From Akkermansia muciniphila (GTDB lineage: Bacteria; Verrucomicrobiota; Verrucomicrobiia; Opitutales; Opitutaceae): 64,000 bases of DNA. Of this stretch, positions 3,198-8,704 are shown piece after piece. The stretch is from NCBI GenBank assembly GCA_945888375.1, contig CAMCZZ010000001.1, forward strand, positions 186,001-250,000, read 5' to 3'. The notes under the pieces were generated by a model that had not been told where the DNA came from, made no database searches, and saw nothing but the letters and a program-made list of their open reading frames with translations. How positions within the stretch are numbered: position 1 is the first letter of the stretch; each line of letters starts with the position of its first letter. The position numbers were made by a program, and so were the translations under genes.

Positions 3198-4127
<930 letters not shown>

Positions 4128-4211
4128 GGGAACAGGTGACACCAAGAATTCGGAAAACGGAAAGCTGAAAACGTAAACCGCGTGTGAAGAACGGGTGGCT
4201 GGCGCGGGAAA

Positions 4212-5357
4212 TCAGGCTAGGCGGGCATCGGCGCCGGCTTCGTAGCGGGTGATCCAGGCGCGGTGCCAGGAGGCGAAGTCGCCGGCTTCGAGGTGCGCGC
4301 GGGCCCGCGCCATGAGGTCGAGGTAGAAGGCCAGGTTGTGGATGGTCAGCAGGGTGCAGCCCAGGATCTCGCCGGCGACGAGGAGGTGGCGGAGGTAGGC
4401 GCGGGAGAAGTTGGTGGCGTAGTTGGCGACCTCGGCGTGGATCGGGCCGGGGTCGGCGCGGAAACGTTCGTTGCGCAGGTTGAGGGGGCCGTCGGGGGTG
4501 AAGACGAGGCCGTTGCGGGCGACGCGGCTGGGCAGCACGCAGTCAAACATGTCCACCCCCAGCGCGATCATCTTAAGCATCTGGGGCGGGGTGCCGAGGC
4601 CCATGGTGTAACGGGGTTTGTGGGCGGGCAGGAAAGGCGTGGTGGCGCCGACCTGTTTCAGCATCTCGGGCTCGGGCTCGCCCACGCTCACGCCGCCGAC
4701 CGCGTAGCCGGGGAAGTCAAGGGCGCCGAGGGCCTCGGCGGCCTCGCGGCGGAGGTCGTCGTAGGTGGAGCCCTGGACGATGGCGAAGACGTGGTGGCCG
4801 GCGGCGAGGAAGCCGGAGTCGGTGGCGATCTGTTTGCACTGCGCGGCCCAGCGCAGGGAGCGGGCGCAGGCGGCGGCGGTAGCCTCGCGTTCGCAGGGCC
4901 AGGGCGGGCACTCGTCGATCACCATGGCGATGTCGCTGCCGAGGTTGGCCTGGATGGCCATGACCTCGCGGGGGCCGAGGAAACATTTTTTGCCGTCGAG
5001 GTGGCTTTGGAACTCGACGCCGTCGGGGTGCATTTTGCGGAGCTTGGCGAGGGAGAAGACCTGGAAGCCTCCGCTGTCGGTCAGGATGGGGCCATCCCAG
5101 CCCATGAATTGGTGGAGACCGCCGAGTTCGCGGACCAGTTCGCTGGTGGGCCGCAGGTTGAGGTGGTAGGTGTTGCCGAGGATGATCTGGGCGCCGAGCT
5201 CGCGGAGCTGGACGGGGGTGACGCCCTTGACGGTGCCTTGGGTGCCGACGGGCATAAAGATGGGCGTCTCGACCACTCCGTGGCGGGTGCGCAGGCGGCC
5301 GCGGCGGGCGGCGGTGTGCGAATCGGTTAGGAGCAGGTCGAAAGGAGAGACGGGCAT
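4212..5357 (-). CDS. tgt: Queuine/preQ1 tRNA-ribosyltransferase (TGT)
   Basis: 381 aa from ATG 5357; a TTG 12 codons upstream is also open. It swaps guanine-34 in GU(N) anticodons for preQ1 during queuosine synthesis. Substrate-binding TDSGGFQVFSL (residues 93-103, Asp94), GGVSVGE (221-227) and the nucleophile in MFDCVLPSR (Asp272) are all present. The zinc site is odd. The usual CxCxxC just before NYSRAYLxHL is replaced here by V310, N312 and T315, with a one-residue deletion, while the fourth ligand His340 (TIHN) is kept. Length and the remaining core are normal, so it is probably folded, but whether it is active without zinc is unknown. Confidence 0.92.
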   Translation of the reverse strand: MPVSPFDLLLTDSHTAARRGRLRTRHGVVETPIFMPVGTQGTVKGVTPVQLRELGAQIILGNTYHLNLRPTSELVRELGGLHQFMGWDGPILTDSGGFQVFSLAKLRKMHPDGVEFQSHLDGKKCFLGPREVMAIQANLGSDIAMVIDECPPWPCEREATAAACARSLRWAAQCKQIATDSGFLAAGHHVFAIVQGSTYDDLRREAAEALGALDFPGYAVGGVSVGEPEPEMLKQVGATTPFLPAHKPRYTMGLGTPPQMLKMIALGVDMFDCVLPSRVARNGLVFTPDGPLNLRNERFRADPGPIHAEVANYATNFSRAYLRHLLVAGEILGCTLLTIHNLAFYLDLMARARAHLEAGDFASWHRAWITRYEAGADARLA

Positions 5358-5415
5358 GAGGCCAACATCCGCCAGGGCGGCGTCGGCGTCCAAGCCGTTT
5401 TTTCAGCCGCGGGCG

Positions 5416-7932
5416 TCAGGCCAGGCCCAGTTCCGGCTGGTCCTCGGCGGGGGCGAGGCGGGCCTGATGGCTGAAGTGGTGGTCGTTAAAGACCGGATAC
5501 AGGGCGTAGAGGCGTTCCAACAGGACGGAAAGCAGTTTTTCCAAAGGGGGCAGGTCGCGTTCACCGCGGAAGTGAGGGGCGGGCTTGAGCTCGCCGAGGA
5601 AAAGCAACAGCTCCTGCGCGGCGCGCTCGGGTGCTCCGGGGCCGGCAGCTGGGTCGCTTTCTTGGCGGATGGCGGCCAGACTTTGCTGCATCGCATGGAC
5701 GAGATGGAAAAGTCCGTGCGGCGCATCTGGCTGCTGGAGGAAGAATTCCGCGACGTAGCGCGGCTGGCTGCGCGCCTGGTAGAGCCTCCGGTAAGCGTCT
5801 TGCGAACCGAGCATGCGCAGCAGGGCGGAGAGTTCGGGGTTGTCGCGGTAGTGGCCGGGGCGGTGGCGTCCGGGACGGGCGTGGGCCCCGAGGACGTGGC
5901 GCAGCGCGCTGCAAGTCATGATGGCGCGTTCCAGGAACACGCCGAGCCGGAGGAAGTGCCAAGCGGCATCGTGCAGCATGGTGTGGTCGGCGGTAGCGTG
6001 GAAGGCGGGCACGTGGTCGAGCACGGCTTGTTCGGCCTCGCTCGCGAGACGCTGGCGCAGTTTGGCGGCGGCGGCGGGGTTGGCGGGAAGGGTGCGGTGG
6101 CGGAGGGTCTCGAGCCGGGCGTGGAGGCGGGTCAGCACGCGCCAGGTTTCGGGTGAGAGATAGTCGCGCAGCTGGCTGGCGTTATAGAGCACGGAACCGC
6201 TGGCGGCAGTGATGGATCCGGGGGTGTCGGGGTCGAGGGTAAGGCGCCAGGCGAGGTCGGCCCCAAAGGTTTCGTGAGGGCGGGCGCGGGCGTCGAGCCG
6301 GGGTCCGGAGTGTCCGGTGGCTTCGAGTAGGCCGCGCCAGACGGGCAGCCAGTGGCGGCGATCGCGGGCGGGGATCTCCTCCAGCGCGACGTCGTCGAGG
6401 ATGGCGAGCATCCGGGCGGTAGCCTCGGCGCGTTCAAGGTAGCGGCCCAGCCAGAAGAGGTTTTCGGCCGCGCGCGAGCCGAGCTGGGCGGGGTGGAGGG
6501 AATCGCCGGGATCGTGGGTTTCGAGATCGGCGAGGCCGCCGGAGTTATGCGACCCGAGTAAAACAAGGGTGTCGGCGGCGGCGCCCACGCGGCCGGACGG
6601 GGGCAGGGCGGAGCCCAGGTGGATGAGACCGCCGGGGAAGACGTCCAGGCGGCGGTCGTCGGTAAGCACGAAGGTGCTCAGGCAGAAGGGCTCGGCGGCG
6701 GCGCGTCCCCCCGGCCGGCGGCCGTCGAGGGCGAGGGCCTCGGGGGTGGCCTGGGCGATGTAGGCGTGGGGGTTGCGAAGGACGCGGCGATCGAGGCCGG
6801 TGGCGGTCAGAAGCGGGCGCCGGTGGGCGGGCCGGGTGACGGTGTAGTTGTCGGGCGACTCGTGGGCGGGGCGGATGATGAAGCGGTCGTGCTGGTCGAG
6901 GATTTGTTCGAGGCGATCGGGGTCGCCGCAGGCGTAGGTCTCGGGTGCGGGCAGCAGGAGTTTTTCGCCGAGGTAAAATTTAGCCAAACGGGGCAGGTAA
7001 GCCTCAATCACCTGACTTTCTGCCAGGCCTGTGCCAATGGTATTGGCCAAGGCCACGCGGCCGGCGCGGATGCATTGGAGCAAGCCGGGGATGCCGGCGG
7101 TCTCGCGGTCGGTGGAGAAAACCACCGGGTCGATATGGGCGTCATTCAGCCGGCGATAGATCACATCAACGCGTTCGAGGCCGGCGACGGTTTTGAAGTA
7201 AACGGTGTTGTCTAGGACGAGCAAGTCGTCGCCGCGGGCGAGGGGCAGGCCCATTTTCCGGGCGAGGAAGCTGTGTTCGGAGTAGAAGGCGTCGTGGGGG
7301 CCGGCGGTGAGGACTACGATGGAGGGCGAGGGGCGGTCGCGAGGCGCGAGTGCGCGCAGGGCGTGGAGCAGTTGAAGGGGGAAATTGATGACGCTGTGGT
7401 AATCGGGCAGGGCGCGGTAAAGGTCGCCGGCTTCCTGGGTCATGAAGCGGCGGTTTTGCACTGCGTAGCTCAGGCCGATCGGGGTGTTGGAACGGGTTTG
7501 CACGCAGCGCCAGCCGGCAGGGGTGCGGACGAGGTCGAAGCGCAGGAGGGTGGCCGGGTTGGCGCGGGCGGGTTCCAGCCCGAGGCAGGGGCGGCGGTAG
7601 AAGGGGTCGGACAGCACGGCTTCGGGCGGGAGGATGCCGGCGCGCAGGCATTGTTGGCGGTGGTAGAGATCGACCAGCAGGGCGTTGACCAGGCGGGCGC
7701 GCTGGCGGAGGCCGGCTTCTAGTGGGGTCCACTCCTCGGCCTTGAGGACGAGCGGGGTGGGCTCAAGGGTCCAGAAGTGCGCCGGTGCCCGGCCGGAGGC
7801 TTCCTCCCGGAGGGAGAGATCGGTCAGGCTAGCATCCCGGATGGCAAGGCGCAGGCGTGGGCGCAGGGTGCGACGCTGGGCAGGGCTCAGGGCGGGCAGG
7901 GCGGTTTGGACGTTGACCGGCGTCGTGGGCAT
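5416..7932 (-). CDS. Fused circularly permuted ATP-grasp / alpha-E domain protein
   Basis: 838 aa from ATG 7932. This start avoids overlap with the divergent rhomboid gene; the frame remains open further upstream. Residues about 60-490 are a circularly permuted type 2 ATP-grasp (DUF404/407 class): TRSNTPIGLSYAVQNR, the DVIYRRLND motif and IIRPAHES. Residues about 515-830 are an alpha-E domain (DUF403), starting at SRAAENLFWLGRYLERAE. The two units are often separate neighbouring genes linked to a transglutaminase and a proteasome-like peptidase, and are thought to build or modify a peptide. Here they are one chain and those partners are absent. The exact reaction is unknown. Confidence 0.85.
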   Translation of the reverse strand: MPTTPVNVQTALPALSPAQRRTLRPRLRLAIRDASLTDLSLREEASGRAPAHFWTLEPTPLVLKAEEWTPLEAGLRQRARLVNALLVDLYHRQQCLRAGILPPEAVLSDPFYRRPCLGLEPARANPATLLRFDLVRTPAGWRCVQTRSNTPIGLSYAVQNRRFMTQEAGDLYRALPDYHSVINFPLQLLHALRALAPRDRPSPSIVVLTAGPHDAFYSEHSFLARKMGLPLARGDDLLVLDNTVYFKTVAGLERVDVIYRRLNDAHIDPVVFSTDRETAGIPGLLQCIRAGRVALANTIGTGLAESQVIEAYLPRLAKFYLGEKLLLPAPETYACGDPDRLEQILDQHDRFIIRPAHESPDNYTVTRPAHRRPLLTATGLDRRVLRNPHAYIAQATPEALALDGRRPGGRAAAEPFCLSTFVLTDDRRLDVFPGGLIHLGSALPPSGRVGAAADTLVLLGSHNSGGLADLETHDPGDSLHPAQLGSRAAENLFWLGRYLERAEATARMLAILDDVALEEIPARDRRHWLPVWRGLLEATGHSGPRLDARARPHETFGADLAWRLTLDPDTPGSITAASGSVLYNASQLRDYLSPETWRVLTRLHARLETLRHRTLPANPAAAAKLRQRLASEAEQAVLDHVPAFHATADHTMLHDAAWHFLRLGVFLERAIMTCSALRHVLGAHARPGRHRPGHYRDNPELSALLRMLGSQDAYRRLYQARSQPRYVAEFFLQQPDAPHGLFHLVHAMQQSLAAIRQESDPAAGPGAPERAAQELLLFLGELKPAPHFRGERDLPPLEKLLSVLLERLYALYPVFNDHHFSHQARLAPAEDQPELGLA

Positions 7933-8032
7933 GCGGGCGGGCAGGTTGTCCGGTTGGTGTGACGGGGGGCAAGCGCGACGGTGCGGGTGTTTGGGGGTTG
8001 GCGGGTGCGGTGCGGGTGTGTGGGATGGGTCT

Positions 8033-8704
8033 ATGTTGCCGCTTTGGGATACTGAACCGCACCGCCGCGCGCCGGTGTTTACCGCGCTTCTCATCACGGC
8101 CTGTCTGGGCGTTTTTGGCTACGAGCTTTGGTTGATGTTGGAGGGCCCAAAGGGGTTTGAGGCCTGGATGACGGCGCATGCGCTGGTGCCGGCGCGGTGG
8201 TTGGCGGGAGTGGCGGATCCGGACCAGTGGGCCACGGTGGCGACGTCAATGTTCCTCCATGGAGGGGTGGCTCATGTGCTGGGCAACTGCTGGTTTTTAT
8301 GGGTGTTTGGCAACAACGTGGAGGACAGGCTGGGGTTTGGGGGATTTGGTTTTTTATACGTGGTCTCGGGGTTGGTCGCGGCGCTGGCGCAGGTAGCGGC
8401 GGACACCGGTTCGCAGGTGCCCATGGTGGGTGCGAGCGGTGCGATTTCGGGGGTGCTCGGGGCATACTTGATCTTTTTTCCGCGTTCCTGGGTATTCGCC
8501 CTGGTGCCTTGGGTCGTGCCTGTGCTGCCGGTGCCGGCGGTGGTTTTTCTCGTGCTCTGGTTTGTGGCCCAGGCCTATGCCGGAGTCGGTTCGTTGCTGG
8601 CGGGAGCGACCGGCGCGGGCGGGGTGGCGTGGTGGGCGCACGCGGGTGGTTTTTTGACTGGGTTGGTTTTTGCCTTGGCCTGGCCGAAACGGCGACGGCG
8701 GTAG
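8033..8704 (+). CDS. Rhomboid family intramembrane serine protease
   Basis: 223 aa from ATG 8033. A much longer frame upstream is a shadow of the opposite-strand ATP-grasp gene. About six membrane helices are visible. The rhomboid hallmarks are present: HGGVAHVLGN (H76, H81, N85), the nucleophile in GASGAISG (Ser135) and the base in AHAGGFLTG (His203). It cleaves transmembrane substrates within the membrane; the substrate is not indicated by the neighbours. It is divergent from the ATP-grasp gene with about 100 bp between the starts, and the next gene (helicase) follows after 60 bp. Confidence 0.9.
   Translation: MLPLWDTEPHRRAPVFTALLITACLGVFGYELWLMLEGPKGFEAWMTAHALVPARWLAGVADPDQWATVATSMFLHGGVAHVLGNCWFLWVFGNNVEDRLGFGGFGFLYVVSGLVAALAQVAADTGSQVPMVGASGAISGVLGAYLIFFPRSWVFALVPWVVPVLPVPAVVFLVLWFVAQAYAGVGSLLAGATGAGGVAWWAHAGGFLTGLVFALAWPKRRRR

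Follow-up and report, generated by a model that had tools for sequence, protein, structure and literature searches.

The window analysed here, a continuous stretch of 64,000 nucleotides, carries a gene for a tRNA guanosine(34) transglycosylase (TGT), referred to below as TGT-A (Table 1), whose product scored 489.7 bits against Pfam PF01702 and 448.9 bits against the NCBIfam equivalog TIGR00430 (Q_tRNA_tgt), above the curated cut-off of 306.75. The reading frame covers positions 4212-5393 (-) and is open up to a TTG at 5391-5393; many relatives align from about residue 10-18 of this longer frame, and the ATG at 5355-5357, from which the residues are numbered, is the probable start. Directly upstream lies a gene for a circularly permuted ATP-grasp protein fused to an Alpha-E domain (5416-8097 on the minus strand; Pfam), and a gene of the NAD-dependent epimerase family occupies positions 3198-4145 of the window.

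Table 1. Position of the TGT-A gene and of its diagnostic residues in the window
Feature	Position	Strand	Remarks
TGT-A, tRNA guanosine(34) transglycosylase gene	4212..5357	minus	381 aa; PF01702, TIGR00430
Degenerate zinc knuckle V310-A-N312-Y-A-T315-N-F317	4407..4430	minus	zinc TGTs: CxCxxCxx[F/W/Y]; here one residue shorter
Codon of V310	4428-4430	minus	
Codon of N312	4422-4424	minus	
Codon of T315	4413-4415	minus	
His340, fourth zinc ligand, retained	4338..4340	minus	present in 58/58 order orthologues
Catalytic Asp94	5076..5078	minus	Asp102 in Z. mobilis
Nucleophile Asp272	4542..4544	minus	Asp280 in Z. mobilis
Arg278-Arg281 segment, intact	4515..4526	minus	Arg286/Arg289 of Z. mobilis; Gln/Lys/Gly in the second TGT type
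Start of dimer-interface helix: Phe317, Tyr321, His324, intact	4386..4409	minus	Trp326, Tyr330, His333 of Z. mobilis

Alignment with zinc-bearing TGTs placed V310, N312 and T315 on the three zinc cysteines and His340 on the ligand histidine, which we take to be Cys318, Cys320, Cys323 and His349 in the numbering of the Z. mobilis enzyme, while the single missing residue fell ahead of the NFSRAYL helix. The initial annotation had described exactly this replacement of the three cysteines together with the loss of one residue, and both its reading and its statement that His340, Asp94, Asp272 and the NFSRAYL helix are intact agreed with the codon coordinates and the alignment. With V, N, T and His at the four positions, the protein lacks the CxCxxC motif plus His of a zinc-bearing TGT. 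The equivalents of the preQ1 pocket and catalytic residues (D102, D280, D156, C158, Q203, G230 and V233) are all there, and Phe317, Tyr321 and His324 presumably have the same interface role as their Z. mobilis equivalents, mutants of which appear in titles of PDB entries. The marks of the second TGT type described below are missing: both arginines are kept and Pfam shows no additional domain.

Distribution of the zinc-site loss

Among the 58 readable TGT-A orthologues of the order Opitutales (55 from genomes and 3 named loci titled Opitutaceae, Opitutales or Verrucomicrobia, with the fragments L026 and L033 excluded) the first cysteine was found in none, the second in one (L032), the third in 28 and the histidine in all. 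On the question raised earlier, whether the loss is clade-wide, the zinc site is thus eroded in most of the order. A sequencing artefact, formerly named as a possible refutation, was excluded, since all 12 orthologues of the window's genus readable at this place, the window's own included, lack the three cysteines; the two further copies from this genus, L026 and L033, end before the zinc site. The five divergent TGTs fetched from the order had either the full zinc site (L127-L129), one cysteine (L130) or none (L131). L127-L130, from genomes G033, G036, G030 and G027, showed about 40% identity and a few additional residues past the nucleophile loop. Two more order genomes with weak TGT matches, G146 and G213, stood outside the fetched set.

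The full CCCH set was present in 48/56 of the other TGTs fetched at class level, and the remaining eight belonged to the Akkermansiaceae (family f20; five) and to family f41 (three, with the third Cys and the His kept). None of 29 sequences from the Akkermansiaceae or their clade had the full site, a set in which one gene stands twice (L089/L144) and one entry, L146, is titled Verrucomicrobiaceae; as the gaps in the knuckle of this family vary with the alignment, the reading relied on the residues of the segment itself and on the His/Gln in the alignment. In genus g46, taken to be Akkermansia, the three cysteines were absent and the zinc His was replaced by Gln in 20/20 fetched TGTs (L070 and L241-L259, from 20 of 21 genomes; G175, with two weak partial matches, was excluded), and genome G119, which we take to be Akkermansia muciniphila ATCC BAA-835, gave a single TGT match without the cysteines.

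At least one zinc ligand was missing in 28/80 named loci retrieved with the TGT-A protein. The complete zinc set is therefore no defining feature of TGTs in general, and the earlier statement that nearly all TGTs bear the zinc motif was overstated, although these loci, picked for their resemblance to TGT-A, do not make a random census. The full site was missing in 16/17 loci classed by their titles as Bacteroidota (L162, L170, L173, L175, L181, L186-L188, L192, L193, L200, L208, L211, L212, L214 and L215), L204 retaining it, and one Rickettsiales-titled MAG was also among the 28. The TGTs of the Bacteroidota and Akkermansiaceae resemble TGT-A in missing the full zinc site, but they fall into separate clades of the tree and have other knuckle residues (G-T-D, I-N-S, H-P-H). 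The top matches in two PDB sequence searches had the cysteines, among the alignments inspected.

A quick tree was computed from 151 rows with the zinc columns removed, after thinning of near-copies (genus, second-type and Akkermansia rows), part of the zinc-bearing rows from the class and many of the named outgroup rows, including zinc-less ones from the Bacteroidota; the program warned of long branches. The label "not CCCH" (85 rows) required six changes on this tree, an approximate figure of which at least three were forced by starred branches, whereas shuffled labels required 49.5 changes on average and 0/500 shufflings came as low as six. The order formed a clade of 49 rows (SH-aLRT 100), the Akkermansiaceae, f41 and two more a clade of 21 rows (SH-aLRT 97) and the Bacteroidota one of 12 rows (SH-aLRT 100). 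The tree alone does not separate gain from loss, but the zinc-less clades were read as losses because the site is present in human QTRT1, in Z. mobilis TGT and in another aligned PDB TGT, the latter presumably the E. coli enzyme. As judged from the sequences, the zinc site seems to have been lost over most of the order and, apparently separately, in several other bacteria.

Within the order, the rows with the third cysteine had a turn of full length in 28/28 cases, while the turn was one residue shorter in 27/28 rows clearly without this cysteine (the exception being L025), two more rows being ambiguous. This association suggests that two of the ligands were lost early and that the third disappeared along with a remodelling of the turn. 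According to such a scheme, the first two cysteines would have been lost at an early stage of the order, with Asn now mostly at the second position; in some Opitutaceae the third would have followed together with the one-residue shortening, leaving the histidine alone. The zinc site of the order therefore looks more like an adapted than a decaying one.

Selection, predicted fold and queuosine genes

TGT-A was found to be under strong purifying selection, with a median dN/dS of 0.072 in the window's genus (66 pairs; range 0.034-0.161). Throughout the order, the equivalents of D102, D156, C158, Q203, G230, V233, E235 and D280 were present in 56/56 TGT-A rows, and both R286 and R289 equivalents were Arg in 55/55 readable order rows and 141/141 other rows (196/196). 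In the Z. mobilis TGT-RNA structure (1Q2R) these two arginines reportedly contact U33 and U35 of the anticodon loop.

The AF2 model of TGT-A (42 sequences) had a mean pLDDT of 91.4, rising to about 95 in the segment 301-330, knuckle included, and its top PDB match by Foldseek was Z. mobilis TGT (1efz; TM 0.93/0.96, rmsd 1.6, 46% identity). The model confidently predicts a (beta/alpha)8 TGT fold in which the zinc-less knuckle is ordered; since a TGT alignment served as its input, such a fold is no surprise, and high confidence in a loop is no proof of metal-free stability. A close kinship with phage TGT-like proteins was rejected on low identity and TM: at E 0.001, viral proteins gave 22 fold matches, with 10-16% identity and a TM of at most 0.58 by query length.

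It is very improbable that TGT-A uses alternative ligands to bind a metal or is stabilised by a partner, for example in a heterodimer with the second TGT of the genome, TGT-B, as in QTRT1/QTRT2. Such compensation would suit the invariance of His340, the presence of His307 (12/12) and Cys334 (11/12) near the knuckle in the window's genus, the two ligands still held by relatives with the third Cys and the His, and the H-P-H in the knuckle of most Akkermansiaceae sequences. However, no set of replacement Cys/His conserved over the order was found in the columns beyond His324, His340 and His355, and the idea of one was rejected because the best additional column, residue 343, reached only 0.71 and is Ala in the window's genus. 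Moreover, TGT-B is absent from most order genomes searched, the fourth ligand is Gln in all 20 TGTs fetched from the genus Akkermansia, and the H-P-H is not invariant.

In 32 order genomes (94-100% complete) that were taken on to the searches for queuosine pathway genes, TGT-A was the only TGT match, and QueA was found in 32/32 of them (split in G122) and QueG above its cut-off in 28/32 (not in G021, G059, G168 and G197). One of these genomes, G017, is taken to be Opitutus terrae PB90-1 and had QueC, QueF, QueA and QueG, all four of which are also encoded in the genome of the window. Two further order genomes with one TGT without the full site, G025 and G031, also have QueA, with QueG in G031 and not in G025. 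Within a subset of 30 genomes, QueC was matched in 29 (weakly in G016) and QueF in 29; in G178 neither was matched while QueA and QueG were present, and this organism is perhaps a preQ1 salvager. The knuckle of the TGT from G178 (L059) is strongly altered and reads LPQDSGAWPTR. TGT and the queuosine genes thus co-occur in the order, but imperfectly: some members have a divergent TGT in place of TGT-A, three of these (L127-L129) with the complete zinc site; both QueA and QueG are missing from G146 and G213, whose TGT is divergent; and in G132, 100% complete by its listing, no TGT was matched at E 0.001, though QueA and QueG were found. In the Akkermansiaceae, QueA and QueG were each found in 14/15 genomes listed, and members of this family are described, from gene presence by BLASTp, as typically able to synthesise queuosine in the part of PMC11130926 consulted.

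The structural zinc is regarded as a part of the TGT scaffold and as necessary for activity. The introduction of PMC9508795 states that TGT needs zinc for activity, and the loss of zinc could therefore mean an inactive TGT-A, that is, a dying gene whose function has been taken over by TGT-B. Nevertheless, purifying selection, the intact active site, the position of TGT-A as the sole copy in many order genomes and the likewise missing zinc site in lineages of the Akkermansiaceae and Bacteroidota make this extremely unlikely. Folding without zinc, one of the two options offered by the initial annotation, was well supported, if indirectly, by the sole TGT match in 32 QueA-bearing order genomes, the purifying selection and the normal fold predicted.

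A second, fused TGT

A search of the genome for another TGT, suggested earlier as a check, gave two genes with the Pfam TGT model. The other one, TGT-B (L001, L216; G000 C19:256-2304, 683 aa), retains both CGCHTC and the His and ends in a Methyltransf_30 domain (Pfam, 41.9 bits; cut-off 22). Contamination was rejected as the origin of the second TGT, second copies being present across the genus and in other families. The initial annotation had regarded a canonical second TGT beside an inactive TGT-A as a refutation of its reading; the zinc-bearing second copy does exist in the genome, but there was no sign of inactivity in TGT-A.

A profile of 10 B-type methyltransferase domains gave five PDB matches at E up to 1, namely MnmC2 (3vyw, E 6e-13) and four yfcK/MnmC chains. 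The NCBIfam MnmC2 model was matched by all 10 domains, the copy from the window's genome scoring 69.3 bits, below the cut-off of 136, for which reason the domain is termed here MnmC2-like, not MnmC2. The AF2 model of TGT-B had a mean pLDDT of 85.4 and a pTM of 0.55, according to which its domains would be mostly ordered and their mutual arrangement unsure. Full-length B-type matches were found in at least 20/189 class genomes, all of which gave at least two TGT matches; the relatives are L217-L235, and the methyltransferase motif is missing in L233-L235, from three f41 genomes. At neither the R286 nor the R289 position was there an Arg in the B-type rows (0/27; 27 rows, 26 genes), the residues being Gln (26) or Lys (1) at 286 and Gln (23), Lys (3) or Gly (1) at 289. 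The dN/dS of TGT-B was 0.225 in the TGT part and 0.334 in the methyltransferase part (45 pairs each, the latter finite in 41), its rows covering more genera than the 66 genus pairs behind the 0.072 of TGT-A.

These data also bear on the other option of the initial annotation, a specialised paralogue with altered substrate or partner. The presence of two TGTs in the genome, with zinc kept by TGT-B only, would agree with a TGT-A that acts on another RNA or base and a TGT-B that makes queuosine, as would genome G009 of the window's genus (77% complete), in which only a B-type TGT was matched. Yet TGT-A alone was matched in the 32 QueA-bearing genomes and keeps the C158, V233 and R286/R289 equivalents, the arginines being absent from 27/27 B rows; TGT-B changes faster (dN/dS 0.23 and 0.33 against 0.07, with B rows spanning more genera) and was accompanied by another TGT match in 20/20 class genomes with the B-type. 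A specialised TGT-A is thus very unlikely. From the sequences, TGT-B is the better candidate for specialisation, with its zinc site kept, its R286/R289 equivalents gone and its MnmC2-like fusion.

MnmC2 methylates the aminomethyl group at the wobble U34 (nm5U34). Because preQ1 also carries an aminomethyl group, the roles may, by analogy, be split: the zinc-free copy would make queuosine and TGT-B, in which the arginines that read the U33-G34-U35 loop are missing, would insert preQ1 into other tRNAs and N-methylate its aminomethyl group. Both this scheme and the undescribed wobble nucleoside that it would yield are a long shot, put forward tentatively. Among titles and beginnings of abstracts in the open-access literature, no paper evidently on methylated preQ1 or on a TGT-MnmC fusion was found.

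Interpretation and comparison with known enzymes

Taken together, TGT-A is very probably the zinc-independent housekeeping queuosine TGT of the Opitutales, with a zinc site that was probably eroded before the gene was inherited; neither decay nor specialisation is apparent in it. Like other enzymes of its kind, TGT-A would replace G34 by preQ1 in GUN-anticodon tRNAs, with Asp272 attacking the ribose and Asp94 acting as the acid/base. The conserved aromatic/His helix would pair two subunits into a working homodimer, in which the C-terminal subdomain would hold together without zinc. We infer that no zinc is bound, that the protein is an active dimer and that queuosine finally arises from its product.

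If the sole-copy TGTs of Opitutus terrae and, by the same trait, of Akkermansia and many Bacteroidota work without zinc, the metal would be a brace that can be dispensed with and has been lost repeatedly, and any link drawn between queuosine and zinc supply could not take a zinc-bearing TGT for granted. Zinc-free enzymes from nature would reveal ways of rebuilding the knuckle on the dimer side, while the zinc-bearing fusion paralogue TGT-B may mark an unknown tRNA modification. The zinc site of TGT is described as conserved in passages of PMC4425180 and PMC6165067. Neither an assay nor a structure of a zinc-less TGT, nor a paper evidently about one, was found among titles and beginnings of abstracts in the open-access literature.

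With the eukaryotic QTRT1/QTRT2 heterodimer the genome of the window shares two TGT paralogues; however, in passages of PMC6165067 and PMC4425180 both eukaryotic subunits bear zinc, and in one of them another residue stands in place of the active-site Asp, whereas here the catalytic Asp is present in both copies and the zinc site is lost in TGT-A. A parallel in metal loss is the putative zinc-binding domain of some bacterial glutamyl-tRNA synthetases: in the part of PMC4381286 consulted, the structural zinc of this tRNA-acting enzyme is lost in some lineages with its function kept, and E. coli GluRS with a zinc-free domain was as functional as the wild type, which shows that losing the metal can do no harm. 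GluRS is, however, an unrelated enzyme, and what is experimental there is deduced for TGT-A. Apart from its metal site, in which it is a variant of wider spread than initially supposed, TGT-A is an ordinary TGT. It shares with the queuosine TGTs of Z. mobilis and E. coli the fold, the Asp pair, the preQ1 pocket, the R286/R289 equivalents and the dimer helix, but while those enzymes have all four zinc ligands, TGT-A misses three of them and has a turn one residue shorter.
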